46,606 nucleotides of DNA. Origin: an uncultured Desulfovibrionaceae bacterium. GTDB lineage: Bacteria > Desulfobacterota > Desulfovibrionia > Desulfovibrionales > Desulfovibrionaceae. Below are positions 6,322-35,738 of the stretch, piece after piece. Within the stretch, counting starts at the first letter, position 1, and the number at the start of each line of letters is the position of its first letter. The translations under genes and the position numbers were made by a program. Location of the stretch: assembly GCA_944325325.1 (NCBI GenBank), contig CALUZP010000156.1, positions 1 to 46,606 on the forward strand, read 5' to 3'. The notes under the pieces were generated by a model that made no database searches, was not told the origin of the DNA, and saw only the letters and a program-made list of their open reading frames with translations.

Positions 6322-7497
6322 CTAGGCCTTCAGTTCGAACGTACCGGTTTCCTTTTTCACATCGATGGCGATCTTCCACAGGGCAGAGACGATCAGGCCG
6401 CCGATGCCGTAGATGCCGAGACCGACCAGAATTTCGGCCAGGCTTGGCGTGTAGTTGGTGACGGTTTCAAAGGGCGTGGGCGTGAAGCCGCCGATGAGCA
6501 GGCCGAGGCCCTTGTCGATCCAGGAAGCGATCACCAGCATGATGAGCGCCCAGGGCAGCAGGGCTTCGTTGTGGCGCAGTGCCGGGGGAATGAGCAGAGC
6601 CAGCGAGGCAATGGCAAACACGGCCGCCGTCCACATCCAGCCGTTCACCCAGGCCATGTGGCCGTCGTGACCGGAGAAGAGGAACAGGATCGGATGCTGA
6701 TGGCCCGGGATGCCGCTGTAGAAGGCGGTAAAGAGCTCAAGCAGGTAGAAGAACACGTTGATGCACATGGCATACGTGATGATGGTGGCCAGAGTCCGCA
6801 TTGCGTCCTTGCCGGGGTCGAACTTGGTAGCCTTTTTGACCACGAGCAGCAGGAGCATGAGGATGGCAGGACCGGAGCAGAATGCCGAGGCGAGGAAGCG
6901 CGCGGCCATGATGGCGGTCAGCCAGTAGTGGCGGCCGGGCAGGCCGGCATACAGGAACGCCGTCACCGTATGGATGGAGAAGGCCCAGAAGACGGAAAGG
7001 AACACCAGGGGCTTGATCCATTTGGGCGGCGTCACGTCATGGCGTTCGCACTCGAGGGTGACCCAGCCGATCAGCAGGTTCAGGATGAGATAGCCTGAAA
7101 GAACCATCATATCCCAGAACATGACCGAGTTGGGCGTGGGGTGCAGCAGTACGTTAAGCACACGCTGAGGCTGGCCGAGGTCGACCACGATGAACAGCAT
7201 GCACATGATCACCGCGCCGACGGCCATGAACTCGCCGAAGATGATCACGCGCTTGAATTTGACATAGTGGTGGAAGTAGGCCGGCAGGACGAGCATGACG
7301 GCCGAGGCGGCCACACCGACGAAGTAGGTGAACTGGGAGATGTAGAAGCCCCAGGACACGTCACGGCTCATGCCGGTAACCTGCAGACCAAGCACCAGCT
7401 GGAAGATGTAGACAATGACCCCAAGTCCCACAATGGCGGCGAGGAAAGCCATCCAGAGATAGAAACGCGGCCTGCCTTTAAAGAGAAGTTCAAGCAT
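6322..7497 (-). CDS. dsrP: DsrP, NrfD-family membrane subunit of the Dsr complex
   Basis: A 391-residue polytopic protein with about ten predicted membrane helices, of the NrfD/PsrC family. In the DsrMKJOP complex it exchanges electrons between the menaquinone pool and the periplasmic subunits DsrO and DsrJ. The sequence shows the family's helix pattern starting 'FYLWMAFLAAIVGLG'. Short charged loops follow, with a 'LDLGQP'-like segment ('VVDLGQPQRVL') typical of NrfD proteins. It is the last gene of the operon, starting about 10 bp after dsrO, with the terminator at 6266-6298 close behind. Confidence 0.93.
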   Translation of the reverse strand: MLELLFKGRPRFYLWMAFLAAIVGLGVIVYIFQLVLGLQVTGMSRDVSWGFYISQFTYFVGVAASAVMLVLPAYFHHYVKFKRVIIFGEFMAVGAVIMCMLFIVVDLGQPQRVLNVLLHPTPNSVMFWDMMVLSGYLILNLLIGWVTLECERHDVTPPKWIKPLVFLSVFWAFSIHTVTAFLYAGLPGRHYWLTAIMAARFLASAFCSGPAILMLLLLVVKKATKFDPGKDAMRTLATIITYAMCINVFFYLLELFTAFYSGIPGHQHPILFLFSGHDGHMAWVNGWMWTAAVFAIASLALLIPPALRHNEALLPWALIMLVIASWIDKGLGLLIGGFTPTPFETVTNYTPSLAEILVGLGIYGIGGLIVSALWKIAIDVKKETGTFELKA

Positions 7498-7506
7498 GGC
7501 TGCCCC

Positions 7507-8283
7507 CTAGATGATGTAGTACACGCCGGGGCCCGTCCCGAGGGTGGGTTTGCGGCGGATGGTGAAGTTTTCGGCGAGCGCCTTGCGGACGGTGGAGGCG
7601 GGATCGCTCAGATCCCCGAAGAGAATGGCGCCGTCCGAGGCTTCCACGCAGGCGGGAAGCTGTCCCTTGGCCAGCCGTTCGGTGCAGAACGTGCATTTTT
7701 CCACCACGCCGCGGGTGCGCGGGGGATAGGCGGTGTTCACATCCTTGATGAACGGCAGGGGATCGCGGAAGTTGAAGCTGCGCGAGCCGTAGGGGCAGCC
7801 GGCCATGCAGAAGCGGCAGCCGATGCAGCGGTGCGGGTCCATGACGACGATGCCGTCTTCCTGGCGGAAGGTAGCCCCTGTGGGGCACACGCGCACGCAG
7901 GGCGGGTTGTCGCAGTGGTTGCACAGCAGCAGGAAATTGCCGTGAATAATCCGATCGGGCATGTACCCGTGCGGATCATCGGGGAAGGTGTGGGCAAAGG
8001 TGTCCTTCCAAAGCCACTTGACGTTCTGGTTGCCGGGGATGTCCGGCACGTTGTGCTCGTGATGGCAGGCGTCGATGACTTTCTGGAAGTCCGCGGCGTT
8101 GGTGAAACGGCGCGTGTCGATGACCATGGCCCAGCGCTTGGCCTTGAGCTGCGCGGGGGCGGTTTCATAGGTGCCTTCAGCGGTCGCAGCCTTGGCGCTT
8201 CCAAGGTTCAGCGCGGCAGCCGAGCCCAGGGCAAAGGCCGAAAGGCCGGCAACCTTAAGAAAATCTCTTCTGCTTTTCTTCAT
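7507..8283 (-). CDS. dsrO: DsrO, periplasmic iron-sulfur subunit with Tat signal
   Basis: A 258-residue ferredoxin-like protein. The N-terminus carries a twin-arginine signal (KKSRRDFLKVAG) followed by a hydrophobic stretch and an Ala-rich cleavage site near residue 30. Cys-rich binding motifs follow: CNHCDNPPCVRVCP, CIGCRFCMAGCP and CTFCTERLAKGQLPAC. These give several [4Fe-4S] clusters of the NrfC/DmsB type. It passes electrons between DsrJ and DsrP on the outer face of the membrane. The chosen ATG at 8283 puts the Tat motif at the N-terminus and overlaps the dsrJ stop (ATGA). The frame extends 23 codons further upstream, but that would bury the signal peptide. Confidence 0.93.
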   Translation of the reverse strand: MKKSRRDFLKVAGLSAFALGSAAALNLGSAKAATAEGTYETAPAQLKAKRWAMVIDTRRFTNAADFQKVIDACHHEHNVPDIPGNQNVKWLWKDTFAHTFPDDPHGYMPDRIIHGNFLLLCNHCDNPPCVRVCPTGATFRQEDGIVVMDPHRCIGCRFCMAGCPYGSRSFNFRDPLPFIKDVNTAYPPRTRGVVEKCTFCTERLAKGQLPACVEASDGAILFGDLSDPASTVRKALAENFTIRRKPTLGTGPGVYYII

Positions 8284-8672
8284 CACTCGTTCCCCTTGGG
8301 CGCAACATGGCAGTTCCAGCAGTAGGGCTGGACGTTGTTGCTGTTGTGGCACTTGTCGCAGAAGTCAACCTTGTTGGCATGGCACCCCAGACAGGTGTTC
8401 TGGAGGCTGATGTCCCACTTCTTGCCGTCGGTTGCGACATAGGTGCGCTTGTCGAAACGGACAGCCTCATCGCGCCAGGTGTTGAGCAGTGTCATGTGCT
8501 GCGTGCGCATCCACTCCTTGGGCTCCACGCACTGTTTGCTGTCTTCGCCCGTGGGAACGGCCACGTCGGGATAGGTGTAGCTGGGCGTGCCGATATTGAG
8601 CCAGAAGGGCGCGGTAAACGCGGCCACGGCCACGACAAGGCCCGGAATAATGTATTTTGCGTTGTACAGCAT
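8283..8672 (-). CDS. dsrJ: DsrJ, triheme c-type cytochrome
   Basis: A 129-residue cytochrome with a single N-terminal membrane anchor or uncleaved signal at about residues 7-27. Three CxxCH haem sites are clustered at the C-terminus: CLGCH, CDKCH and CWNCH. DsrJ is the periplasmic haem subunit of DsrMKJOP, and one of its haems is known for unusual axial ligation. The gene overlaps dsrO by an ATGA and lies directly after dsrK. Confidence 0.95.
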   Translation of the reverse strand: MLYNAKYIIPGLVVAVAAFTAPFWLNIGTPSYTYPDVAVPTGEDSKQCVEPKEWMRTQHMTLLNTWRDEAVRFDKRTYVATDGKKWDISLQNTCLGCHANKVDFCDKCHNSNNVQPYCWNCHVAPKGNE

Positions 8673-8674
8673 GA

Positions 8675-10315
8675 TTAGGCGTCCTCCTCACCCGATGCGG
8701 CGGATTCGTCAACGTCCGGTTCGGGCAGATCTTCCTGCCGCAGGTCCATGGTGCGGGGGATTTCTCCCTTCATGACCAGCGCGTTGGCCACCAGTTCGTG
8801 CAGGCCGCTGACAGTCACGCCAGGCGCCCAGTAGTTGGCGACGGTAGGCAGGACGGCGCGGTCAAGCGCGCAGATGCAGGTCAGCCAGTTGACGTCGTTC
8901 TTCTGCTGCACATAACGCAAGGCGTTGCCGCGGGGCATGCCGCCGCGCAGGCGCAGCTCCATGATTTCTTCCGTGTTCAGGCCGGAACCCGAGCCACAGC
9001 AGAAGGTCTGTTCGCGGATGGTGTTCGGAGGCATTTCCACGAAGTTGTTGCATACGGCCCGCAGGATGCTGCGGGGTTCTTCCAGAAGCCCCATGGCGCG
9101 GGCGGGGTTGCACGAGTCGTGGTAGGTGGTGATGATATGGTTGTTGCGCTCGGGCTTGAGGTTCAGCTTGCCGTGCTTGATGAGGTCCGCCGTGAATTCG
9201 GCGATGTGGATCATCTTTGTCGCGGCGGCGTGCTTGAACACGGTGCCTGTAATGGGCGAAACCGGGGTGATCATGTTGTCGGGGGCAGGGCCGTTGTAGG
9301 TGGCCATGTACTGGTTGACCACGCGCCACATATGGCCGCATTCGCCGCCCAGGATCCACTTGGCGCCCAGGCGCTTGGCTTCGGCGTACATCTTGGCGTT
9401 GAGCTTCTTGGCCATGTCGAACGACACGAACGAGCCGAAGTTGCCGCCTTCAGAAGCGTAGGTGGACAGGGTGTAGTCCAGCCCGATTTCATGGAACAGC
9501 ATGAGGTAGCCCATGAACGTGTAGATGCCGGGATCGGCGAACACGTCACCGGAGGGCGTGATGAACAGCACTTCATGCCCCTTTTCGTTGAGGGGCGGGT
9601 TGATGCGGATCCCGGTGATGGTCTCGATGTCGTCGCACAGGAATTCGATGATGTCCTTGAGCGCATGGGGCTGCAGGCCGATGTGGTTGCCGGTGCGGTT
9701 GCAGTTGGAGACCGGTTCCATGACCCAGTTGATGCCGAGGCCGAGCTCATAGAGAAGCTCGCGCACGATGGCCGTGATTTCGGCCGTGTCAATGCCGTAG
9801 GGGCAGAACAGCGAGCAGCGGCGGCATTCCGTGCACTGATAGGCGTAGAAGAACCATTCCTTGATGACGTTCTTGTCGAGCTTGCGCGCGCCGACGACCT
9901 TGCCGAGAAGCTTGCCGACAAGGGTGAAGTCCTTGCGGTACACGGAGCGCAACAGCTCAGCGCGCAGCACGGGCATGTTTTTCGGGTCGTTGGTGCCGAT
10001 GAAGAAATGGCACTTGTCGGCACAGGCGCCGCAGCGCACGCACGAGTCAAGGAAGACTTTCAGCGAACGGTGCTTGGCAAGGCGTTCCTTGAGGCCGTTG
10101 TAGATGATTTCTTCCCAGTTTTCGGGAAGGTGCCAGTCTTCTTCGTCAGGACGCCATTCATGGGGATGAGGCATGTGCATGCCTTCCATGATTTCAACCT
10201 TGGCAGGATAGCAGAAGTTGCCGGCCTTGAATTCCGGCTTGGTATTCATCCAGCCCTTGGCAGGGAAGGGCGGACGTCCCGCCATCAGCTCTTCGGGTTT
10301 GGGCAGTTTGGCCAT
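8675..10315 (-). CDS. dsrK: DsrK, cytoplasmic HdrD-like iron-sulfur subunit
   Basis: A 546-residue protein related to heterodisulfide reductase subunit HdrD. Two [4Fe-4S] motifs are visible: CVRCGACADKCHFF near residues 92-105, and CTECRRCSLFCPYG. Further on are the CCG-domain features 'YHDSCNPAR' and 'FCCGSGSG', which in HdrD-type proteins build a noncubane cluster. DsrK faces the cytoplasm and is proposed to reduce the DsrC trisulfide made by dissimilatory sulfite reductase. Its C-terminal tail is acidic and probably disordered. A second open frame of similar length lies antisense to it and is a codon-bias shadow. Confidence 0.95.
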   Translation of the reverse strand: MAKLPKPEELMAGRPPFPAKGWMNTKPEFKAGNFCYPAKVEIMEGMHMPHPHEWRPDEEDWHLPENWEEIIYNGLKERLAKHRSLKVFLDSCVRCGACADKCHFFIGTNDPKNMPVLRAELLRSVYRKDFTLVGKLLGKVVGARKLDKNVIKEWFFYAYQCTECRRCSLFCPYGIDTAEITAIVRELLYELGLGINWVMEPVSNCNRTGNHIGLQPHALKDIIEFLCDDIETITGIRINPPLNEKGHEVLFITPSGDVFADPGIYTFMGYLMLFHEIGLDYTLSTYASEGGNFGSFVSFDMAKKLNAKMYAEAKRLGAKWILGGECGHMWRVVNQYMATYNGPAPDNMITPVSPITGTVFKHAAATKMIHIAEFTADLIKHGKLNLKPERNNHIITTYHDSCNPARAMGLLEEPRSILRAVCNNFVEMPPNTIREQTFCCGSGSGLNTEEIMELRLRGGMPRGNALRYVQQKNDVNWLTCICALDRAVLPTVANYWAPGVTVSGLHELVANALVMKGEIPRTMDLRQEDLPEPDVDESAASGEEDA

Positions 10316-10324
10316 GGGAACTCC

Positions 10325-11377
10325 TTACTGGGCAGAGGCAGGCTCAACGGGCTTGCCAGACTTTTCGTTGTCATGGGCCTGCGCTTCTTCGAGGCTGATT
10401 TCCAGGGGCAGCCCGGCCTCGGCCATGGGTTCGCGGAAGTCGTCTTCATATTCGGCGTAGGTGTGGAAGACGGTAGGCTTGTTCCAGGGGTTGACGTGGC
10501 GCACCTGACGCGTGTTGCAGGGCAGGTTGCGCGTGGGTGACAGGAACACGCCGCCCATGTGCACCAGCTTGCTGAAGGGGAAGATGATGAGCAGTACGCT
10601 CAGGAAGGTCAGATGCGTGAAGAACAGCGGATTCAGCCCTTCGACGCTCTGGGGGGAGAAGTGCACGATCCCCATGATGAAGACCTTGGCCTGGGCCACG
10701 TCAAGCTTGTCGAAATAGCGCATGCAGATGCCCGTGCCGACCAGCCCCATGATCAGGAACAGGGGGAAATAGTCGTTGGCCATCGAGATGTAGCGCAGCT
10801 TGGGATTTACGATGCGGCGCAGGAAAAGGAACAGCAGCGCACAGACAATCAGCACGTTGCTGAGGAACAGCGTGGGCACGCCTACCTGCAGGATCCCGTC
10901 AAAGAATTCGACCCATTCCAGACAGACGGGAACGGGCTCGAGGAAGAAGCGGAAGTGGCGGATAAACGTGACAAGGAAACAGTAGTGGAACAGCAGGGCG
11001 AAAAGCCACAGCCACTTGGAGGAAAAATAGGTGATCCGCATGTTCTGGGGATCAACCCTGGTTGTGGTGTTGCGGAACAGCGATCTGAACAGCAGGACTT
11101 CCAGCAGCATGCGGCCGACAACACCCGCTTTGGTCATCGGTGTGTCGAGCCGTGCGGGTTTGATCCAGTCCAGCGAGCGCTCCTGCCCGCCTGTCGTGGG
11201 GATGGCAAAGGGCACGGGCGATTTCGCCCAGTACAGGACGCGCCAGATCATGCCGCCGATGAACACCACCACGGCCAGCAGGGGCAGCGCCATGCCGAAC
11301 AGGTACTGCAAACCGGCCTGCGACCCTGTCCACGCGGCAAGGCCGATAAGCAGGGCTGCCACAAAAGAAACTATCAT
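10325..11377 (-). CDS. dsrM: DsrM, cytochrome b subunit of the Dsr complex
   Basis: A 350-residue NarI/HdrE-like membrane protein that binds haem b and oxidises menaquinol. Helices are seen at about residues 5-50 (two), 115-140, 160-185, 200-220 and 240-275. Conserved histidines include those in 'LFHYCFLVTFIRHFRFF' and 'THLTFLSV'. The C-terminal cytoplasmic tail ends in a charged stretch. It precedes dsrK by 9 bp, and the AGAGAGGTAGGG before its start is a good ribosome binding site. Confidence 0.93.
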   Translation of the reverse strand: MIVSFVAALLIGLAAWTGSQAGLQYLFGMALPLLAVVVFIGGMIWRVLYWAKSPVPFAIPTTGGQERSLDWIKPARLDTPMTKAGVVGRMLLEVLLFRSLFRNTTTRVDPQNMRITYFSSKWLWLFALLFHYCFLVTFIRHFRFFLEPVPVCLEWVEFFDGILQVGVPTLFLSNVLIVCALLFLFLRRIVNPKLRYISMANDYFPLFLIMGLVGTGICMRYFDKLDVAQAKVFIMGIVHFSPQSVEGLNPLFFTHLTFLSVLLIIFPFSKLVHMGGVFLSPTRNLPCNTRQVRHVNPWNKPTVFHTYAEYEDDFREPMAEAGLPLEISLEEAQAHDNEKSGKPVEPASAQ

Positions 11378-25330: not shown

Positions 25331-25428
25331 GTTTAATCACGAGCGTGATGGGGGAGAGCGCCGTAGGTGAATTATACAGTCGAATAGAACGATTTGGCTG
25401 TAACTTCATAACTTTTTAAGGAGTGGTT

Positions 25429-26421
25429 ATGAGACGCCTTTCTTTTTCCAAAGTGTTAGCGGTGGCCGCCATTACGGTTCTTGGCTTTTGCTTTACAGCC
25501 CAGGCCGTGGAGAAGCCTGACAATTATCCTAAACGGCCTGTAACTGTGATTGTGCCCTTTGGCGCTGGCGGTGGTGCGGACCAGATGGCGCGTGCGCTTC
25601 TGCAGGAAGTAGGCAAGAACATCGGCGTGCCGATCATTGTTGTCAACAAACCTGGAGGCAACGCCACGCTGGGCTTTTATGATTACTGGGCTGCGCCTGA
25701 GGATGGTTATACCCTGCTGCAGTATAATGACGACGGCGTTACCCATAAGGTTTCCAGCATCCTGAAGCAGGATCCCACAGTGGATTATCAGCCGCTGAGC
25801 ATTGCCATGATTGTGTATAGCCAGATTTATATTCGTGGTAACGACAAGCGGTTCCATGACTGGGATTCCTTCATTGCCTATGCCAAGGCGAACCCGGGCA
25901 AGGTAACGCTGGGCAACATCGCACAGAAGGGCAATCTGGAAGAAGTGCAGGCTACCCAGCTGATGAAGGCTGCAGGCGTGGAGTTCCGCCAGATCAGTTT
26001 TGACAAGCCCAGCGAACGGTATGCCTCTCTGGTCGGCGGGCATGTTGATGCACTGCTGGAACAGCCGGGTGATGTGTCCCCCTACATCAAGTCTGGCGAC
26101 ATGAAGCCGATCCTCTCATACACCGACGTCCGTCCTGTTGAATTCCAGGATATCCCCTGCATTAAGGAACTCGATGATAAGGTCGTCAATATTTACAAGG
26201 TGCGCGGGTTCTATTGCCGCCCCACTCTGGACAAGAAGATTCAGGACTACCTGCGGGAAGCCTTCAAGCAGGCCTTCCTGTCTGAAAACTTCCAGAAGTA
26301 CATTTCGGACAAGTACCTGGTAGACACGGAGTACCGCGATCTCGATCAGAGCATTGAGCTGCTGCGGGGCATGATGGAAACCTACGCCAAGACCTATCGT
26401 GAACTTGGTTACATTAAATAA
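25429..26421 (+). CDS. TctC-type solute-binding protein of a tripartite tricarboxylate transporter
   Basis: A 330-residue periplasmic receptor. An N-terminal signal peptide covers about residues 1-25 (Arg-Arg start, hydrophobic core, 'AQAVE' cleavage site). 'YPKRPVTVIVPFGAGGGADQMARAL' is the Bug/TctC family hallmark, with its glycine-rich ligand loop. 'NKPGGNATLGFYDYWAAPEDGYTLL' is also typical. Family members bind small carboxylates through water-mediated contacts, and SlcH-type relatives bind sulfolactate. The start follows AAGGAG at ideal spacing. It heads the operon with tctB and tctA. Confidence 0.9.
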   Translation: MRRLSFSKVLAVAAITVLGFCFTAQAVEKPDNYPKRPVTVIVPFGAGGGADQMARALLQEVGKNIGVPIIVVNKPGGNATLGFYDYWAAPEDGYTLLQYNDDGVTHKVSSILKQDPTVDYQPLSIAMIVYSQIYIRGNDKRFHDWDSFIAYAKANPGKVTLGNIAQKGNLEEVQATQLMKAAGVEFRQISFDKPSERYASLVGGHVDALLEQPGDVSPYIKSGDMKPILSYTDVRPVEFQDIPCIKELDDKVVNIYKVRGFYCRPTLDKKIQDYLREAFKQAFLSENFQKYISDKYLVDTEYRDLDQSIELLRGMMETYAKTYRELGYIK

Positions 26422-26496
26422 CGCATGCGCATTTCGTTTCCCTTTCGCCAGAGTGCGAAAAGAAAACGGAATGCGCCGGTGTTGAGGAGAACAGGT

Positions 26497-27003
26497 ATGA
26501 ACAGACAGAAGACATACCTTGGAGAGTTCATCGTAACCTTTGGGATAGGTCTTGTTGCCTTCCTTCAATCCTTTAGCTTTGATGATCCCATTGAACTTTA
26601 TCGCTATGGAGCAAACTGCTGGCCTGCCGCCATTGCCATAAGCATGATGGTCTGCTCATTGTGTCTGTTCCTTTACAGGCGATATGTCCCTGCTTCCTCA
26701 GCGGATACGGAGGAAGAGGAGGATCATATACCTTTCCGGCGTCGGATTCCTGTCTTTGTAATTCCAATTATTTTTGTACTACTTCTGCCTTATATCGGAT
26801 TTTATGCTGGAATTTTAATATTTCTTCCTGTGTACGCATGGTTTCTTGGCCAGCGCAATATCCGTAAGACGCTTTCAGTTTGCTTTTTAATTGCAGCTCT
26901 TATCATAGTTGTTTTTACAAAATACTTGTTTGTACCTTTTCCTGTTGGCACATGGCCAGGATTTTATGAGTTCAACTCGGCGCTGGTCGCCTTCCTGTAT
27001 TGA
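26497..27003 (+). CDS. TctB-type small membrane subunit
   Basis: About 168 residues with four predicted membrane helices (roughly 10-26, 41-62, 83-105 and 118-150). An acidic loop, 'SADTEEEEDH', lies between the second and third. This is the usual layout of the small subunit of tripartite tricarboxylate transporters, which is poorly conserved in sequence. The start at 26497 has GAGGAGAACAGGT before it; an in-frame start at 26425 would add a basic, non-membrane extension and lacks such a site. Base composition is more AT-rich than in its neighbours. Confidence 0.8.
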   Translation: MNRQKTYLGEFIVTFGIGLVAFLQSFSFDDPIELYRYGANCWPAAIAISMMVCSLCLFLYRRYVPASSADTEEEEDHIPFRRRIPVFVIPIIFVLLLPYIGFYAGILIFLPVYAWFLGQRNIRKTLSVCFLIAALIIVVFTKYLFVPFPVGTWPGFYEFNSALVAFLY

Positions 27004-27014
27004 GGAGAGCTGTT

Positions 27015-28514
27015 ATGGAACACATGCTCATGGGGTTGCAATATCTTTTTTCAGACCCCTTCAACATCGTGCTGTTTCTAGCGGCCCTGTTCGGAGGCAT
27101 GTTCTTCGGGGCTGTTCCGGGCATCAGCGTCACTACGCTGGGGGCCATTCTCCTGCCGTTCACGGTATACCTCACTCCTGCCCAGGCCCTTATGGTCTAT
27201 GGCGTCATGTACTGCTCGGGAACTTACGGGGGAGCCATCATGGCCATCCTCTTCAATATCCCGGGTGCTGCTGAAAATGCTCCCACGGCCTTTGACGGCT
27301 ACCCTTTGACCAAGCAGGGCAAGGCCGGCCTGGCCATCGGCGCGGCTGTGACCTGCTCGGCTATAGGGGGGCTGATGAGCTGCATCGGCATGATGCTCGG
27401 CACGGATGCCATCGCACGCTGGGCCATTGTTTCCTTCGGACCGCCGGAAATGTTTGCCGTTATTTTCTGCGGCTGTGCGTTGGCGTCCACCATGGGGGCT
27501 TCTTCCACATTGAAGGGATGGCTTTCTCTTGCCTTCGGCCTGCTGCTGGCAACGGTCGGAGCTGACCCTGTGGGCGGCATATTCCGCTATACCTACGGCA
27601 GTGTCGGATTGATGGGCGGCATCAGCTTCATTCCGCTTCTTCTTGGCTTCTTTTCCATTTCTGAAGTGTTCTCCAATGCCAGTATTGGCGTGAGCAAGGA
27701 AAGCATCAAGGCCTACAGTAATGTGGGTGTGGAGTTCCCCTCGCTGCGCACGTTCTGGCAGCAGCGCGTCAACATTCTTCGTTCGGCCGGCTGTGGTTTC
27801 TGCTGCGGGATGCTGCCGGGCCTTGGGGCCACTCTGGCTGCTTTCATGAGCTATGGTTTTGCCCGCAGCACATCCAAGCATCCTGAACGGTTCGGCAAGG
27901 GTGAACTGGCAGGCGTCATCGCTTCTGAAACGGGCAATAACGCGGCCACCGGCGGGGCCATGATTCCCATGCTGGCTCTGGGACTGCCTGGTGGATCCAC
28001 CACAGCGCTCATGCTGAGCGTGTTCCTGCTGCACGGGCTGGAACCCGGGCCGCTGATTATGACCCAGCAGACGCAGATGGTATGGGCCGTATTTATGGCC
28101 ATGTTCCTTGCCAACTGCAGTATCCTGGGCCTCGGCTATGTCGCGAGCAAGACCGTGACGAGCCTGTTGCGCATCCCTACGTCTTTCCTGATGCCCTTCA
28201 TCTTTGTCCTGTCTTGCATCGGGACCTATGCGTTGCGCAATTCCGTCTTTGACGTGTGCATCATGCTGGTGGCAGGGCTGTTCGGCTTCCTGGTGAAGAG
28301 GCATGGCTACTCTGCCGCAGGGATTGTGCTTGGCAGCATCCTCGGTTCTCTGGGTGAGTCCGCCTTTGCCAAGACGATGCAGATGAGCGACTATGACTGG
28401 ACCATCTTCCTCACTCGTCCGTTCTGTGCGTTTTTCATCGGGGCAGGCTTCCTTTCGCTTGGCATCATTGCCTATCGTTCTTTGAAGTCCATTCGCGTTG
28501 CCACGCATCATTGA
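27015..28514 (+). CDS. TctA-type large membrane subunit
   Basis: A 499-residue permease with about 10-12 membrane helices. The family features are 'GAVPGISVTTLGAILLPFTVYLTPAQALM' near the start and 'IPGAAENAPTAFDGYPLTKQGKAG'. The repeat of the first motif is seen in the second half as 'CGMLPGLGATLAAFMSYGFARSTSK'. 'GVIASETGNNAATGGAMIPMLALGLPGG' is the most conserved segment. It drives ion-coupled uptake of the ligand delivered by the binding protein. GAGGAG precedes the ATG at 27015. Confidence 0.93.
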   Translation: MEHMLMGLQYLFSDPFNIVLFLAALFGGMFFGAVPGISVTTLGAILLPFTVYLTPAQALMVYGVMYCSGTYGGAIMAILFNIPGAAENAPTAFDGYPLTKQGKAGLAIGAAVTCSAIGGLMSCIGMMLGTDAIARWAIVSFGPPEMFAVIFCGCALASTMGASSTLKGWLSLAFGLLLATVGADPVGGIFRYTYGSVGLMGGISFIPLLLGFFSISEVFSNASIGVSKESIKAYSNVGVEFPSLRTFWQQRVNILRSAGCGFCCGMLPGLGATLAAFMSYGFARSTSKHPERFGKGELAGVIASETGNNAATGGAMIPMLALGLPGGSTTALMLSVFLLHGLEPGPLIMTQQTQMVWAVFMAMFLANCSILGLGYVASKTVTSLLRIPTSFLMPFIFVLSCIGTYALRNSVFDVCIMLVAGLFGFLVKRHGYSAAGIVLGSILGSLGESAFAKTMQMSDYDWTIFLTRPFCAFFIGAGFLSLGIIAYRSLKSIRVATHH

Positions 28515-28575
28515 TTGCAAAACCGGCTGGCTGCCGATACCGGCAGCCAGCCTTATCCGTGTGGGGGGAAAGCTC

Positions 28576-31077
28576 ATGGCCTATCATGTTGAGCCAGCTT
28601 GTTGCGGTGAGTCCGCCTTTCTGACAGCCCATGAAAGACGCATCCTTCATGATGATGGTGCCTTTCGCAGATTGCGGCCGAGAATTGCCAGCATTCTTGA
28701 TACATTTTCGGGGAAAATGCCCATGCTGGATGTTGAACGGGCGCTGTATTTCACCCGTTCGATGCGCGAGACCGAAGGCCGTCCTCTGGTTTGGCGCTGG
28801 GCAAAGGCTCTGCATTGTGTGGCAGAGAACATCACTGTTTCCATTGATCCCCATCAGCTTCTTGCGGGCCGTATCGGCAAAAGTCCCCGATACGGGATTA
28901 TGTATCCTGAAATTGAAGGCGATTTTTACAGGGAAGGTTTGACCGGGCTTTCTTCCAGGGACAATTCCCGTGCCGGCATCCCCGCGGAAGATCTCCATAT
29001 TGCTGTCACGGAAGTGGCCCCTTACTGGGAGGGGAGAACGTATCATGAACAGTTCACCCGAAAGCTTCAGCCGGAGATCAAGAGGCTGCTGTTCAAGGAC
29101 GAGCGGGGAATAGCGCCGCGGTATATCGTCAACGAGTCTTCCTCATTCCGTTCTTCACTGCAGTGGGTGCATGACTATGGTCGTGTCATCCAGCGTGGAT
29201 TTGTCGATATCCGGCGTGAAGCCGAGGAAAAGCTGGCCGCCCTGGATCCGTATGATCCTGAAGTGATCAATGTGACGCGTCCGTTTTATGAGGCGGTGAT
29301 CATCGTCTCGGATGCCATCATGCTGTGGGCAAAGCGTCATGCCGATTTGGCCAGGGAGCTGGCCGCAAAGGAAACGGATGCCCAGCGCAGGGCAGAGCTG
29401 GAAAAGATCGCTGACATCTGTGACCGGGTGCCTGCCTATCCTGCCCGCACATTCCACGAAGCGGTGCAGTGTCAGTGGTTTGTACAGCTGTTTTCCCGTC
29501 TGGAGCAGCGTACGGGCACGACCATTTCGAACGGCCGGATGGATCAGTACCTTTATCCGCTTTATAAAAAAGACAGGGATGAGGGGCGCCTGACGCCTGA
29601 TGAGGCCGTGGAGCTCCTGGAATGCCTGTGGGCCGGAATGGCCCAGTTTGTGGAAATGTACATCATGCCTCAGGGCAACGCATTTACCCAGGGATACGCC
29701 CACTGGGAAGCCGTGACCATCGGGGGGCAGACTCCTGAAGGGGCAGACGCCACAAACGAGCTCAGCCATCTTTTCCTCCAGTCAAAGCGTGAATTTCCTC
29801 TGCACTATCCGGATCTGGCAGCCCGTCTTCATGCGGGCACTCCGGACAGCTTTCTTGAGGATGTGGCTGAAACCATCCGATATGGCACCGGACACCCCAA
29901 GCTCCTCAATGACGAGGAAATCGTGCCTCTTCTGGTTTCCAAGGGGGCGAAGTGGAGTGAGGCCCTGGACTACGCAGCCTCTGGCTGTACGGAAGTGCGG
30001 ATGCCCAACCGGGACACCTTGACTTCCAGCTGTGCCAGGCTGAGCCTGCCTGCCATGCTTGAGCTCACCCTCTACAACGGCCGGATGAAAAAATATGGTG
30101 ATGAGATACTGGGTGTTGAGACAGGCGACCCACGTACATTCAAGACGTGGGAGGATTTCTATGACGCCTTTATCATGCAGATGCGCGAACTTTTGAAGAC
30201 GGCATTTGCTTCGCAGTATGTCATCAACAAACTTCGTCCTCAATGCTTTGCACAGCCAATGGGCTCTGCGCTGCATGACTTATGCATGCGCTATGGACTG
30301 GATCTCCATACGGAGCACATTCCTGAAGGTCTGGAACTGGGGTTTGTGGATTTTATCGGTTTTGGAACGCTCATTGACTCGCTGTCGGCAATCAAGACCT
30401 TTGTGTTTGAGCGGCGTGAAATTGATATGGAAACCCTGCTTAAGGCGCTTGAAGCCGACTTTGAGGGCTACGAGTCCTTGCAGAAGAAACTGCAGACAGC
30501 GCCTGCTTACGGAAACAATGATCCTCGGGCTGACTCCATTGGCAAGGCCGTGGAAAGAGCGGCCATGGATATGTGCGAGCGTTACGCGCCCAAGCTCGAG
30601 ATGCAGGTCGACGTGCGTTATGTGCCGGTTACCGCGCATGTGCCCTTCGGACATGTCGTTTCCGCCATGCCTAACGGCCGTAAGGCCTGGATGCCACTTT
30701 CTGACGGGACTTCCGTTTCGCACGGGGCAGATCTGACCGGTCCCACGGGGGTTCTGCTTTCCAATGCAGCGAGCAAGAATCGTTCCTGCTATCACCGGGC
30801 GTCACGGATGCTCAATCTGGCGTTCACGCCCAAGGTACTGGAAGGCGAAGAAGGGATCGCCCGTTTTATGGCTTTCCTGAGGACGTTTGTTGATCTCAAG
30901 CTGTGGCATGTGCAGTTCAATGTGGTCAACACCGAGACGCTCCTCAAGGCGCAAGCCAATCCTGATCGATACAGGAGCCTGATCGTGCGGGTAGCGGGAT
31001 ACAGTGCTTATTTTACGGATCTTTCACCCGTCATGCAGCAGGACATCATCGATCGCAGCAAATATACATCTCTTTAA
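28576..31077 (+). CDS. Glycyl radical enzyme of unassigned substrate, PFL-like dehydratase/lyase group
   Basis: An 833-residue glycyl radical enzyme. The active-site loop reads ASGCTEVRMPNRDT, with the thiyl Cys471 and the general-base Glu473 two residues on. This Cys-x-Glu pattern marks diol dehydratases and C-S or C-N lyases and is absent from pyruvate formate-lyase (Cys-Cys). The C-terminal radical loop is RVAGYSAYF with Gly808. Length and spacing are close to isethionate sulfite-lyase and glycerol dehydratase, but the Thr and the 'VRMPN' tail differ from the 'GCVEP' of glycerol, propanediol and choline enzymes. It needs a radical-SAM activase, and none is encoded in this window. The ATG at 28576 follows a GGGGGGAAAG stretch; an in-frame start at 28498 overlaps tctA. 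Confidence 0.88.
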   Translation: MAYHVEPACCGESAFLTAHERRILHDDGAFRRLRPRIASILDTFSGKMPMLDVERALYFTRSMRETEGRPLVWRWAKALHCVAENITVSIDPHQLLAGRIGKSPRYGIMYPEIEGDFYREGLTGLSSRDNSRAGIPAEDLHIAVTEVAPYWEGRTYHEQFTRKLQPEIKRLLFKDERGIAPRYIVNESSSFRSSLQWVHDYGRVIQRGFVDIRREAEEKLAALDPYDPEVINVTRPFYEAVIIVSDAIMLWAKRHADLARELAAKETDAQRRAELEKIADICDRVPAYPARTFHEAVQCQWFVQLFSRLEQRTGTTISNGRMDQYLYPLYKKDRDEGRLTPDEAVELLECLWAGMAQFVEMYIMPQGNAFTQGYAHWEAVTIGGQTPEGADATNELSHLFLQSKREFPLHYPDLAARLHAGTPDSFLEDVAETIRYGTGHPKLLNDEEIVPLLVSKGAKWSEALDYAASGCTEVRMPNRDTLTSSCARLSLPAMLELTLYNGRMKKYGDEILGVETGDPRTFKTWEDFYDAFIMQMRELLKTAFASQYVINKLRPQCFAQPMGSALHDLCMRYGLDLHTEHIPEGLELGFVDFIGFGTLIDSLSAIKTFVFERREIDMETLLKALEADFEGYESLQKKLQTAPAYGNNDPRADSIGKAVERAAMDMCERYAPKLEMQVDVRYVPVTAHVPFGHVVSAMPNGRKAWMPLSDGTSVSHGADLTGPTGVLLSNAASKNRSCYHRASRMLNLAFTPKVLEGEEGIARFMAFLRTFVDLKLWHVQFNVVNTETLLKAQANPDRYRSLIVRVAGYSAYFTDLSPVMQQDIIDRSKYTSL

Positions 31078-31085
31078 GGTACGTG

Positions 31086-31113
31086 TGCGCCTCTGAAAAA
31101 TTTTTCAGGGGCG
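31086..31113 (+). other. Long palindrome between the glycyl radical enzyme and amidohydrolase genes
   Basis: GCGCCTCTGAAAAA and TTTTTCAGGGGCGC form a 14-bp stem with one G-T pair and essentially no loop. It lies 9 bp after the stop of the radical enzyme gene. It may be a processing or stabilising hairpin that sets different expression of the upstream and downstream genes. The 3' side lacks a T-run, but the 5' arm could form the U-tract of a cruciform-like terminator. Confidence 0.5.
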
Positions 31114-31359
31114 CACCGCCCGTCTGATGTCCCAACAGTACTGCTTGTCCTTGTTTCTCTGGAACAGGGTATGCTGTCACACCTGCGCGCTTTTCTGACA
31201 ATAAGGTGCGCCGGGCAGGATGTGCTTGTCATTGCAGAGGGCCCCTGCACCCGCTGTGGGATTCGCGCCGTATGCCGGCGGCAGTCATTTTTGGTGTCGG
31301 AAGGGGCTTTTCATAAAGAAGTTGCCCTGACGTTTTCTCTACGTCTACTGGAGCCTACG

Positions 31360-32211
31360 ATGATTATTGATTTTCGTGTTCGCCCGCCGTTTCCTGGGTT
31401 TGAGAAGATCGGGATTCTGGGAAAGAAAAAAGGGTACGAGATCTTTCCGTGGAGTTTCCCCACAACGGAGCCTGTCAATTCTGCCAAGGCGTTTTCCGAA
31501 GAGCTTTTTTTTGCTGAGATGCAGGCTGCAGGCATTGCCAAAGGTGTGGTCATGCCCCGGGCTGTTGGCAATACGGCAGGCGGCGTAAGCAACGAAGAAG
31601 TGGTGGCCGGAACGTCCCGCTATCCTGACCTGTTGATTCCTTTTGGGTCTGTGGATCCCAGCGGGGACATCCGGACTGTGGCCCAGGAAATCGAACACGC
31701 TGTCAGAGATTTGGGGTGCCGGGGCATTGTTATTGAGCCCGGGTGCTCTGTGCCCCCGCTGCGGGCCAACGCCGCGCGTCTCTATCCTCTGTACGATCGC
31801 TGCGCCGAGCTTGGCGTACCTGTTGTGCTCACAATGAGCATGAAACAGGGCCCCTCCATCGCGCTGTCCAATCCGGCAGACGTTCAGGAAGCGGCGCGCG
31901 ATTTCCCCAGACTGAATTTTGTCATTGCCCATGCGGCATATCCCTTCGTGCTTGAAGCGGCCGCCGTAGCCTGTGTGACTCCCAACGTATGGCTTCTGCC
32001 CGATGTCTATATGAACATCGGTGAAATTCCTGCTGGCAAGCTGTACGCCGAGACCGTGTACCTGCTGCATGGCCGACGGGTGCTGTATGGTTCGGCGTAT
32101 CCGCTCCGCGGCATGGCGCAAAGCCTTGAAGGGCTGAAAAGCTATAACTTCCCCAAGGAATACTACACGTTACTTACATATCAGAATGCCGCGGATCTGC
32201 TTGGCCTGTAG
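31360..32211 (+). CDS. Amidohydrolase-fold protein lacking most metal ligands
   Basis: A 283-residue TIM-barrel protein of the amidohydrolase-2 (ACMSD-like) type. The overall pattern is clear: 'MIIDFRVRPPF' as strand 1, 'GCRGIVIEPG' in the middle, 'LNFVIAHAAYPFVLEA' and 'RVLYGSAYPLRG' at the end. The expected Asp-x-His-x-His of strand 1 reads D4-R6-R8, the strand-5 His is replaced in 'VPVVLTMSMKQG', and the late Asp of 'GSDYP' is Ala246. Only His191 is kept. It is therefore probably metal-free and either non-catalytic or changed in mechanism. The ATG at 31360 follows CTGGAG; an upstream in-frame start at 31171 adds 63 residues that look unrelated. It lies between the radical enzyme and the aldehyde dehydrogenase. 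Confidence 0.8.
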   Translation: MIIDFRVRPPFPGFEKIGILGKKKGYEIFPWSFPTTEPVNSAKAFSEELFFAEMQAAGIAKGVVMPRAVGNTAGGVSNEEVVAGTSRYPDLLIPFGSVDPSGDIRTVAQEIEHAVRDLGCRGIVIEPGCSVPPLRANAARLYPLYDRCAELGVPVVLTMSMKQGPSIALSNPADVQEAARDFPRLNFVIAHAAYPFVLEAAAVACVTPNVWLLPDVYMNIGEIPAGKLYAETVYLLHGRRVLYGSAYPLRGMAQSLEGLKSYNFPKEYYTLLTYQNAADLLGL

Positions 32212-32305
32212 AAGTGACGGGTTTTGATTTTTGGCAAGGCTCTGAAGACTACCGGCATCATACAGGCGCAGCCTTGACGATGCCACCAACCCATAAGGAG
32301 AAAGT

Positions 32306-33892
32306 ATGTCCTCCTCTCAGCGTTACTTCACTGTGCTGGAAAAAGCCGGCGAAAACGGACGGCGTGAAGATCTGCTTCTGCTGAAGCATTACATCAATGG
32401 GGAATGGCGCGATTCGACATCGACAGCTCCCCTTCGGGATGGATACAACCCTTCTACCGGTGAAGTCATCGCCAAAGTGCCTCAGTGCACCGTGGCGGAG
32501 CTGGGCGATGCTGTCGCCGCGGCAAAGGCTGCTTTCCCCGCGTGGTCACACACTCCGGTGCGTACGCGTGTACAGGTGCTGTTCCGGATGAAGGCGCTTC
32601 TTGACAAACATATCGACGAGCTCACCCTCCTGCTCTGCCGTGAACAGGGAAAGAGTCTTTCGGAATCGAAGGGTGACATTGCCAAGGCCATTGAAGTGAT
32701 TGAATTTGCCTGCGGCATGCCTCAGCTTTTGAAGGGCGAATCGATCATGAACGTCTCAAGGAACTATGATACAGTATTGTATCGTGAGCCTATCGGGGTT
32801 TTCCTTGGCCTGGTGCCATGGAATTTCCCTGCAATGATTCCGCATGGATGGATGATTCCGCTTTGCATAGCCGCGGGCAATACCTTTGTGCTGAAAGCCG
32901 CGACGAACTGTCCGCAGAGCGCCATGCGCTTTATAGAACTCTGGGAAGAAGCCGGCTTGCCCAAGGGGGTTGTGAATCTGGTGACGGCCAATACCCGCGA
33001 TGTGGAGTATCTGATCAAGCATCCGGATATTGTGGGCGTGAGCTTTGTGGGATCGACGAGTGTGGGCATGCAGGTCTACAGGCAGGCGGCTGAAGCCGGA
33101 AAGCGGGTGCAGTGTCTTGGAGAGGCCAAGAATCATGCGCTGGTTCTGGCCGATGCAAAGCTTGAACGTAGTGCTGCCGGCATCATCAATGCGTTCTGCG
33201 GTTGCGCGGGCCAGCGCTGCATGGCCCTGCCTGTTGTCGTTGCCGAAGAGAAAATTGCAGATCGCCTTGTCGGGCTGATTGCCGATCTGGCGCGTAAGCA
33301 GACGGTAGGATGCGCCTATCTGCCTGAAACCAAGCTGGGCCCGGTTGTCAATGCCAAGCAGAAGGCGTCTATCCTGCAGTGGATCGACAAGGGCCTTGCA
33401 GAAGGCGCCAGGATGGTCCTTGACGGGCGCAACGTCACGGTCCCCGGCTATGAGAACGGATTTTTCATCGGGCCTACCATTCTTGACTACGTTACCGAAG
33501 ACATGACGGTGGGGACACAGGAAATCTTTGGCCCGGTTCTGTGCATCAAGCGCGTCAAGAACTTCGAGGAAGGCCTGGCGCTCATGAACAGGAATCCGTT
33601 TGCCAACGGTTCGGTAATTTATACGTCCAGCGGCTACCACGCCCGGGAGTTTGCCTTCCGTACGCATGGAGGCCAGGTCGGGATCAACGTGGGCATCCCC
33701 GTGCCTATGTGCATTTTCGGCTTCACCGGGCATAAGAAGAGCTTCATCGGAGACTTGCATGTCATGGGTACGGACGGCGTGCGGTTCTACACCGAAAGCA
33801 AGAACGTCACCAGCACATGGTTTACTGAGGAAACGGAAGCCAAGGTAGATACCTGGGACGGCATGGTCGCTGAGGATTCTTCCGCCAAGTAA
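32306..33892 (+). CDS. CoA-acylating aldehyde dehydrogenase, MmsA/IolA (methylmalonate-semialdehyde dehydrogenase) family
   Basis: A 528-residue NAD-dependent dehydrogenase. 'LGLVPWNFPAMIPHGWMIPLCIAAGNTFVLK' and 'GEAKNHALVLADA' are typical of the methylmalonate-semialdehyde dehydrogenase group. So is 'CAGQRCMAL' with nucleophile Cys305 and Arg304. Members turn (methyl)malonate semialdehyde and CoA into acetyl- or propionyl-CoA plus CO2. The residue aligned with Arg107 of Bacillus subtilis IolA, which binds the substrate carboxylate, is Lys127 here. The substrate acid group may therefore differ. The N-terminus is about 20 residues longer than usual. AAGGAG precedes the ATG, and a perfect inverted repeat follows the stop. 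Confidence 0.88.
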   Translation: MSSSQRYFTVLEKAGENGRREDLLLLKHYINGEWRDSTSTAPLRDGYNPSTGEVIAKVPQCTVAELGDAVAAAKAAFPAWSHTPVRTRVQVLFRMKALLDKHIDELTLLLCREQGKSLSESKGDIAKAIEVIEFACGMPQLLKGESIMNVSRNYDTVLYREPIGVFLGLVPWNFPAMIPHGWMIPLCIAAGNTFVLKAATNCPQSAMRFIELWEEAGLPKGVVNLVTANTRDVEYLIKHPDIVGVSFVGSTSVGMQVYRQAAEAGKRVQCLGEAKNHALVLADAKLERSAAGIINAFCGCAGQRCMALPVVVAEEKIADRLVGLIADLARKQTVGCAYLPETKLGPVVNAKQKASILQWIDKGLAEGARMVLDGRNVTVPGYENGFFIGPTILDYVTEDMTVGTQEIFGPVLCIKRVKNFEEGLALMNRNPFANGSVIYTSSGYHAREFAFRTHGGQVGINVGIPVPMCIFGFTGHKKSFIGDLHVMGTDGVRFYTESKNVTSTWFTEETEAKVDTWDGMVAEDSSAK

Positions 33893-33911
33893 TCCAGCTT
33901 GACGCTTGTCT

Positions 33912-33947
33912 GTTCTCCCTGCAGATGCTTATGGCTGCAGGGAGAAC
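33912..33947 (+). terminator. Perfect 13-bp inverted repeat ending the operon
   Basis: GTTCTCCCTGCAG and CTGCAGGGAGAAC flank a 10-nt loop, 20 bp after the aldehyde dehydrogenase stop. There is no T-run, so it may act as a weak or factor-assisted terminator or as an mRNA 3' cap. Confidence 0.6.
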
Positions 33948-34920
33948 ACCTCGAAGCACTGCTACAGGAGGAGTGTTGCATGTATGCAACTTTCCCTGTA
34001 CCGTTTGAGACGAAAAGAAGGCAAATAGTCCAGGAAAAACTGTAGCCGTGCAACTTGAAGCAAACGTTCTTTCCTTATAGCCAGAAAGAAGCAATCGACG
34101 CTAATGCAGGGGCTGAAAGCAGCCATGGCCGGCCCCGTAGCAGCTATATAGATGCCCAGTAATTGGAATGAAATAAATAAAAATACCAATGAGTGGAAAC
34201 GCAGCAGGCGCACGGCTTGGAGGCTTGGCCGGCACCGTACTGGCAGCATGGTGACAGTGCAGACGCTGTGACTGCTTGTGAGACTTCTGGAAATTTTCCT
34301 CATACTGATTGATGCGTGGACGCCGGAGGAATGTGGGGACAGGAACCCCGGACGCAGCATCCGGACAAAATATTTTTTCTGTGCAGGTCTTGATATAGGC
34401 CTGATGGCTAACCAGGCAACGATGCGGTGTGTCAGCTGGAAGCAGGATAAAGCAGAAGATGTCCTGTATGCGTCTGACAGGTTCGGATCCGGCTGGCACA
34501 CTCTTGACAAGGCTGCTTGATAGCGTGGAATACAAAGAAGCCCGCGCGATCCTGTTTGCACATATGCAATCGGGATGAGTATACCCAAAGGATGCCGACT
34601 TGTTCTGGAATGGCTTTGGGAGAGAAGCCTTGGAGCAGATCCGGCTGCCGGCGGGTTCCCTCAGAGTAGGGAGTACGAAGGGAGTGCGAAATGCGAGATA
34701 GATGGCCGTCGAGTGTCCGCTTGCAGGCAGTACATGACTGCATCAGCGTTGTGGATCATCGAGCCTGCGCCAATGTGACAGGCTGCTGTCTCGTTGCGTG
34801 CGCAATCAGCATCATGTTTGTTATAAGCCTGTTTTTTACCTGAAGCAAAGCAGCGCGTCATAGCTTAGTTCATGTATGAAGGAAGCCGTGGCCTGATTTA
34901 GCCGATCCAAATGGAAATTA

Positions 34921-34949
34921 TTCTGAAAAGATATAATTATCAATATAAT
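34921..34949 (+). promoter_or_regulatory. Possible promoter of the GntR regulator gene
   Basis: TTCTGA and a perfect TATAAT are separated by 17 bp in a very AT-rich stretch. A second TATAAT-like hexamer overlaps. The -35 match is poor. Confidence 0.4.
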
Positions 34950-34962
34950 ATTATAACAAAAG

Positions 34963-34980
34963 CCATCTTTTTGTAGATGG
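34963..34980 (+). promoter_or_regulatory. Hairpin or operator covering an ATG of the GntR gene
   Basis: CCATCT and AGATGG form 6-bp arms around TTTTGT, and the second arm contains the ATG at 34977. It may be an autoregulatory operator or a stem that masks this start, in which case translation begins at 34995. Confidence 0.4.
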
Positions 34981-34994
34981 TACAGAAGAAAAAT

Positions 34995-35738
34995 ATGTTT
35001 GCATTACAAGAATGCTGTGCTGTCAAAAGAGATAAGCTGCCTCAGCAGATTATTCGCAATATTCGAAATATGGTGCTGGAAGGCCGTCTGAAGCCTGGTG
35101 ATAAGCTTCCGTCCGAGCAGGAACTTATAAAGACTTTTTCTGTCAGCCGGCAAACAATACGCGAAGTCTTGCGGGTACTGGAGGCGCAGGGGCTGTTAAG
35201 TATCCGGCCTGGAGCCGGAGGGGGCACGTTTGTGTGCGAGGTGGATATTGATGTCACGCGTCAAAGTCTGATCAATTTCCTCCACCAGACGGACTTGTCT
35301 CTTGAGCATCTCTTCCAAATCCGTCAGATCCTGGATCCCTATTTCGCAGAAACAGCCGCAAAAGTCATGTCGCCGGAGGATCTCGAGGCCCTTGCGCAGA
35401 TTGTGGCAACGCAAAAGCTCCATCTGGATGAGGGAAATCTGGCCGAAGCCCGAAGGGCTGAAATACAGTTTCACCGCGATTTGGCGCGTGTTACTGATAA
35501 TCCCCTGTTGATTCTGCTTCAGGATTTCATTGAAACGCTTTTGGAAAAGGTCAAGGCTCAGCTTTCTCCGGATCATGCCTTTTCGCAGCATTCCTTTGAC
35601 TGGCATTCCCGGGTTATTGAAGCGTTGAAAAAGCATGATGCCGTCAGTGCGCGCGCGGCTATGCTTGCTGATTTGGCGTCTGTAGAGTCTGATCTGCTGA
35701 AGCTTGGCGCTGAAAAAGACAAGATTAACTGGAAGTAG
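34995..35738 (+). CDS. FadR-type GntR transcriptional regulator
   Basis: About 247 residues. The winged helix-turn-helix domain at about residues 12-75 reads 'PGDKLPSEQELIKTFSVSRQTIREVLRVLEAQGLL' followed by the wing 'RPGAGGGTFV'. The C-terminal FCD domain (about 90-235) is helical and includes 'EIQFHRDLARVTDNPLL' and 'DWHSRVIEALKKHD'. These His, Asp and Glu residues form the usual metal or ligand site. Such regulators sense small carboxylates and usually repress an adjacent catabolic operon, so control of the tct-radical enzyme genes is the natural inference. An ATG at 34977 lies inside a CCATCT/AGATGG stem; the ATG at 34995 follows AGAAGA and is preferred. Confidence 0.85.
   Translation: MFALQECCAVKRDKLPQQIIRNIRNMVLEGRLKPGDKLPSEQELIKTFSVSRQTIREVLRVLEAQGLLSIRPGAGGGTFVCEVDIDVTRQSLINFLHQTDLSLEHLFQIRQILDPYFAETAAKVMSPEDLEALAQIVATQKLHLDEGNLAEARRAEIQFHRDLARVTDNPLLILLQDFIETLLEKVKAQLSPDHAFSQHSFDWHSRVIEALKKHDAVSARAAMLADLASVESDLLKLGAEKDKINWK

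Follow-up and report, generated by a model that had tools for sequence, protein, structure and literature searches.

Which reaction is catalyzed by a glycyl radical enzyme (GRE) whose gene stands between those of a tripartite tricarboxylate transporter (TTT) and of a CoA-acylating aldehyde dehydrogenase (ALDH)? The question is raised by a locus on contig C156 of an uncultured member of the Desulfovibrionaceae, the genome of which comprises 2.18 Mb and is 84% complete; the whole stretch of DNA analysed, 46,606 bases, is hereafter called the window. An earlier note on this DNA had proposed an undescribed anaerobic pathway and had offered two schemes, the dehydration of glycerate and a C-S cleavage releasing sulfite. 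The analysis described below suggests that this oxygen-sensitive enzyme probably cuts sulfite from a sulfur-containing acid taken up by the cell; gut hydrogen sulfide would then have a source that has not been mapped. The carriers are a chicken-gut-type relative of Desulfovibrio and the common human-gut species Desulfovibrio piger.

Organization of the locus

The GRE of the window is 93% identical to that of Candidatus Avidesulfovibrio excrementigallinarum (L008), and the host can be assigned to a species in the same genus as this organism. The TTT transporter, the GRE with a Cys-Thr-Glu site, the degenerate amidohydrolase-fold protein (AMH), the ALDH and the FadR-type regulator named in the earlier note were all found on the forward strand where it had placed them. 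The features are as follows.

25423..26421, +, TctC, substrate-binding protein of the TTT transporter (PF03401, 91.6 bits)
26497..27003, +, TctB (PF07331, 61.5 bits)
27015..28514, +, TctA, large membrane subunit (PF01970, 424 bits)
28525..28552, +, stable hairpin in the tctA-GRE spacer (fold z-score -3.7, over 28510-28580)
28576..31077, +, GRE, 833 amino acids, third clade of the sulfonate C-S lyase group (PF02901, PF01228, NF048011, tree, AU tests)
29149..29163, +, Arg192 and Gln196 of the GRE (IslA Arg189 and Gln193), sulfonate-site residues (alignment to 7kq3, 5ymr and 6lon)
29986..29994, +, Cys471-Thr472-Glu473, Cys-x-Glu catalytic motif of the GRE (sequence motif)
30037..30039, +, Arg488 of the GRE (position of IslA Tyr485 and CutC Tyr506), unique to the operon subclade
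30616..30630, +, Arg681 (IslA Arg678) and Val685 (IslA Phe682) of the GRE (alignment)
30997..30999, +, Gly808 of the GRE, glycyl radical site (RVAGYSAY motif)
31084..31117, +, strong hairpin 3' of the GRE gene, without a T run (-28 kcal/mol, z -5.95)
31360..32211, +, AMH, Amidohydro_2 (PF04909, 87.7 bits; nearest solved structure 3irs)
32306..33892, +, MmsA-family (CoA-acylating semialdehyde) dehydrogenase (TIGR01722, 540 bits; active-site residues; iol context of a relative)
33911..33948, +, hairpin 3' of the ALDH gene, probable operon end (z -4.6)
34977..35738, +, FadR-subfamily GntR regulator, GntR-FCD (PF00392, PF07729; D. piger counterpart in the same place)

The TctA, TctB and TctC families were all found together, as is expected of a tripartite tricarboxylate transporter; the reading frame of TctB opens at 26425, and its start at about 26497 was judged from L008. 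The TctCBA-GRE-AMH-ALDH set spans 25423-33892 and is probably carried on a single transcript. Its gaps, measured ahead of start-codon refinement, are 3 and 11 bases within TctCBA, 61 to the GRE gene, 279 to the AMH gene and 94 to the ALDH gene, and the regulator lies 1.1 kb past the latter. The hairpins, two of which bracket the GRE gene while the third closes the operon, may set unequal expression or tune mRNA stability; the GRE gene of D. piger also has one behind it (z -3.2). The GC content of the operon is 54.7%, compared with 60.1% in the remaining window, which fits lateral transfer.

Conservation in other genomes

The order TctC-TctB-TctA-GRE-(AMH)-ALDH-FadR recurs in Ca. A. excrementigallinarum and in D. 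piger ATCC 29098, and these were the only operon matches in a first scan of genome contigs. In a set of 288 genomes of the family, both the TctC type and the GRE subclade are confined to these three, and the next-nearest TctC in the set has at most 33% identity. No additional GRE of the operon subclade was found in the phylum sample searched, and the best matches on the plasmids searched were GREs with no more than about 35% identity.

The operon proteins of D. piger are 69-71% identical to those of the window, except for TctB and the regulator at about 42% (43% for the regulator); the AMH gene is missing there and the flanking genes differ. A random grouping of unrelated genes was ruled out because D. 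piger keeps the order amid different flanks. The single operon claimed earlier is likely: the order is conserved in three genomes rather than random, with the qualifications of the hairpins between genes, the distance of the regulator and the missing AMH gene in D. piger. The TctC family was also considered as a clue to the substrate and failed, its relatives outside the operon being too distant (at most 33% identical).

Phylogeny and active site of the GRE

The best matches to the GRE among solved structures were IseG (1126 bits; 5ymr, 60% identity), IslA (1070 bits; 7kq3, 57%) and HpsG (1059 bits; 6lon, 56%), compared with 500 bits for choline lyase. In the tree, the enzyme groups with IslA and HpsG rather than with the CutC-like GREs, and it belongs to a third clade of 8 sequences (100/100 support) that stands beside these two. 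AU tests rejected the joining of this clade to IslA (p 1.1e-6) or to HpsG (p 8.6e-6). Close clustering with a characterised clade and a random gene order in related genomes had been named as results that would overturn the proposal; the enzyme clusters inside neither clade, and the gene order is conserved. The loci of other third-clade members are typical of sulfonate GREs and contain TRAP, activase and AMH genes.

Both the Cys-x-Glu motif (C471-T-E473) and the glycyl radical loop (RVAGYSAY) are intact. The triad Arg189/Gln193/Arg678 (IslA numbering) is conserved in the window GRE and missing from the CutC-like control GREs. In IslA, this triad holds the sulfonate of isethionate and each residue was found to be essential by mutation (PMC8473560), and it was reported to be absent from non-sulfonate GREs (PMC6453916). 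The triad marks an anion site without telling which anion is bound. The NCBIfam model NF048011 is named "(2S)-3-sulfopropanediol dehydratase", but this name was not accepted as a label of function; it misleads annotation because the model passes every triad-bearing GRE scanned, the top score among these being that of D. piger IseG (1557 bits).

Around the triad, the pocket differs from those of both characterised enzymes. The residues at 192, 312, 682 and 684 are Ile, Thr, Phe and Ser in IslA and Leu, Ala, Ile and Ser in HpsG; the window GRE has Leu, Thr, Val and Ala. The changes F682V, S684A and I192L occur throughout the third clade, and Y485R, Y479L and G482S are confined to the operon subclade within it. 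The mutations F682A and F682Y lowered the activity of IslA by 1-2 orders of magnitude (PMC8473560). These data bear on the idea of a second isethionate lyase, an IslA paralogue with a local acetaldehyde dehydrogenase. The nearest solved relative is indeed IseG, and MmsA-type enzymes can use simple aldehydes, but the idea is very improbable: the Phe682 that is costly to mutate is Val here, the clade is separate, and a TTT transporter replaces TRAP. The role would also be redundant, because the window genome already has IslA, accompanied by BMC shell genes and an aldehyde dehydrogenase, and D. piger already has IseG.

Among the changes of the operon subclade is Arg488 (position 485 in IslA). In the structure of IslA, strand beta-6 bends away from the site near 485 and leaves a water site, so that an Arg there could reach a second anionic group; with the strand displaced in this way, however, Arg488 may also fail to touch the substrate. 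A structure prediction of the GRE from three sequences gave a mean pLDDT of 36 and was left unused.

Taken as a whole, the window GRE represents a new, conserved and uncharacterised lineage inside the group of sulfonate-cleaving GREs, and it is most likely a C-S lyase. In the literature searched, which included a 2026 review (PMC12890257), there were no sulfite-releasing GREs besides IslA and HpsG and no assayed enzyme of the third clade, and no described pathway with this gene set was found, as the earlier note had supposed. "Undescribed pathway" was nonetheless too strong a term for a new lineage in a known enzyme group.

Activation of the GRE

No activase was found in the window or adjoining the GRE in any of the three operons. 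The absence noted earlier is correct for the operon but not for the genome, which holds four full-length activases elsewhere; the isethionate locus has one of them, and the remaining three adjoin other GREs. In D. piger (99% complete), there are 4 GREs and 3 activases, each activase lying only a few kb from a GRE other than that of the operon. An activase of its own has apparently been lost from the operon subclade, because the GREs of the sister subclade keep one directly adjoining. Activation of the operon GRE in trans is implied, since all three activases of D. piger adjoin other GREs, and the activator is most likely IslB/IseH of the separate isethionate locus. A precedent for such activation is given in E. 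coli by PflA, which serves TdcE.

The amidohydrolase-fold protein

In AMH, the metal motif HxH of strand 1 is changed to Arg-x-Arg and the Asp of the last strand (strand 8) to Ala, while one His of strand 6 remains; the protein is predicted to be catalytically degenerate. Members of the Arg-x-Arg family are found at IslA, HpsG and third-clade loci alike. The family was seen near 26 of 34 triad-bearing GREs and near 1 of 9 triad-lacking GREs (Fisher p 0.0006, descriptive only, the genomes being related); the counts cover GREs flanked by 7 kb or more, and the loci were picked by GRE and not by neighbour. AMH-type proteins also occur elsewhere in the window genome without a GRE, and D. piger has a gene of the family in its IseG locus and none in its TTT-GRE operon. 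The published isl cluster of B. wadsworthia carries a gene of the same family, which was listed only as a predicted amidohydrolase (PMC8667426). The tight link of AMH to sulfonate GREs points to a missing accessory part.

Other triad-bearing GREs

A second TTT operon is present in the window genome (L060, G000:C126). It contains a triad GRE at 7113-9608 on the reverse strand, 43% identical to that of the window, with its own activase and a GntR regulator, and it lies near a nickel-pincer isomerase, an HpcH-type aldolase and an aldehyde dehydrogenase; counterparts of its activase and TctC also occur together in G008:C49. More triad GRE lineages were seen in gut Desulfovibrionaceae (L126, L143, L070, L076, L132, L133, L135, L142, L128, L130 and L131). 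Their motifs are CAE, CNE and, in one case, CAS; none groups with IslA or HpsG, and some have an Arg-x-Arg AMH gene within 50 bases. In a neighbouring GRE lineage, that of L125, L127 and L129, the triad is Asn/Asn/Lys, possibly a changed substrate class, and two of the three still have an AMH neighbour.

The aldehyde dehydrogenase

The ALDH scores 540 bits against TIGR01722, the cut-off of which is 448.5, and it keeps the Arg beside the catalytic Cys (QRC motif). At the position of the second carboxylate-binding Arg, at about Arg107 in B. subtilis, the window protein and its whole subfamily have Lys. The contexts of its relatives vary (TPP enzyme with TRAP, amidase with TRAP, Fe-ADH pair, iolD-iolG), and relatives of 85-87% identity stand beside TRAP genes with other enzymes and no GRE. 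Hence, the substrate range is not directly readable from the context, and the ALDH need not use the product of the GRE. The iol case alone is informative on substrate: a relative of 57% identity with the same active-site Lys/Arg pair adjoins iolD and iolG, both above their cut-offs, and this relative is likely a malonate-semialdehyde dehydrogenase (IolA), because inositol breakdown needs the oxidation of malonate semialdehyde.

A subfamily that includes a likely IolA suits the glycerate scheme, in which the GRE would dehydrate glycerate to malonate semialdehyde and the MmsA-type ALDH would give acetyl-CoA and CO2. Every gene but AMH would be explained (carboxylate transporter, Cys-x-Glu eliminase, MmsA family). 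Glycerate differs from isethionate by a carboxylate in place of the sulfonate and by an extra hydroxyl, and the carboxylate could occupy the Arg site. The scheme is unlikely nonetheless: the hosts are sulfite-respiring, IslA-type sites show no evident acid that would protonate the departing hydroxyl, and the ordinary glycerate kinase route is simpler. Of the two schemes offered earlier, C-S cleavage is favoured and that from glycerate is the weaker, since the full sulfonate triad of IslA is intact and the enzyme stands among C-S lyases.

Proposed function and host metabolism

A complete DsrMKJOP is encoded in the window (6322-11377, reverse strand), and no sulfate adenylyltransferase turned up in the two Avidesulfovibrio genomes, which are 84% and 79% complete. 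A sulfite-respiring, organosulfonate-dependent life of the host is plausible on these grounds, although both genomes are incomplete. The operon, on balance, probably combines TTT import of an organic acid, a third-clade glycyl radical sulfite-lyase and an acyl-CoA-forming ALDH, with sulfite passing to DsrAB/DsrMKJOP. The acid would be taken up by the transporter and passed to the GRE, where the glycyl radical, installed in trans, would pass to Cys471. The thiyl radical of Cys471 would abstract hydrogen from the hydroxyl-bearing carbon while Glu473 deprotonates the hydroxyl, and sulfite would depart from the adjacent carbon, with Arg192, Gln196 and Arg681 as the residues that hold it. The substrate would be a hydroxysulfonate, neither isethionate nor DHPS; it probably also carries a carboxylate, which the extra Arg488 would bind. 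The product would be an aldehyde, most likely a semialdehyde, which the MmsA-type dehydrogenase would convert to an acyl-CoA, and DsrAB with DsrMKJOP would reduce the sulfite to H2S.

Sulfolactate is one candidate for the imported acid: the GRE would act as a radical 3-sulfolactate sulfite-lyase giving pyruvate and sulfite, and the ALDH would serve another compound. In Taurinivorans, the import of sulfolactate is putatively assigned to TTT transporters (SlcHFG; PMC10507020). Sulfolactate is known to serve as an electron acceptor in the gut, and the added Arg488 suits a carboxylate. Pyruvate as the product, however, leaves without a substrate an ALDH that is kept in all three operons, and HpsG widens the hydroxyl-carbon side by T312A (residue roles in HpsG being read from sequence only), whereas the window GRE retains Thr. 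Sulfolactate is thus rather unlikely.

To return to the sulfite-lyase with an aldehyde product, 3-hydroxy-2-sulfopropanoate would suit the transporter, the GRE and the dehydrogenase, its product being malonate semialdehyde; to our knowledge, it is not known as a metabolite. It can tentatively be suggested that D. piger has a third radical C-S pathway, in which a carboxylated hydroxysulfonate, new as a respiratory substrate, is converted by a trans-activated GRE to a semialdehyde (e.g. malonate semialdehyde) and further to acetyl-CoA. That D. piger carries a third-clade enzyme in a conserved operon for import and oxidation implies that H2S in the gut is fed by an organosulfonate not yet mapped. 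The operon is directly testable there, because the type strain is cultivable and has already been grown on isethionate (PMC6453916).

Comparison with known systems

The likeness of the ALDH to MmsA/IolA (1t90, 9q0d) is at the level of the family; the Arg preceding the catalytic Cys is shared, and the second Arg of the carboxylate site is Lys in the window ALDH and its subfamily. With HpsG (6lon), the GRE shares the triad, Leu192 and a small residue at 682, and differs in its own clade (56% identity), in Thr312 in place of Ala, in Val in place of Ile at 682 and in its neighbours. The sister subclade (L040-L043, L051) belongs to the same third clade, with the L-T-V-A signature and an Amidohydro_2 companion of about 41% identity; unlike the window operon, it has TRAP and an adjoining activase, neither TTT nor an MmsA-type ALDH, and Tyr or Met at 485. 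IslA/IseG (7kq3, 5ymr) have in common with the window GRE the fold, the Cys-x-Glu motif, the Gly loop, the Arg/Gln/Arg triad and Thr312, together with sulfite-respiring hosts and an Arg-x-Arg amidohydrolase-fold neighbour. The window enzyme is set apart from them by its own clade (57-60% identity) and by Phe682 to Val, Ile192 to Leu and Tyr485 to Arg, and its operon by TTT instead of TRAP, the lack of an adjoining activase and an MmsA-type ALDH within the operon.
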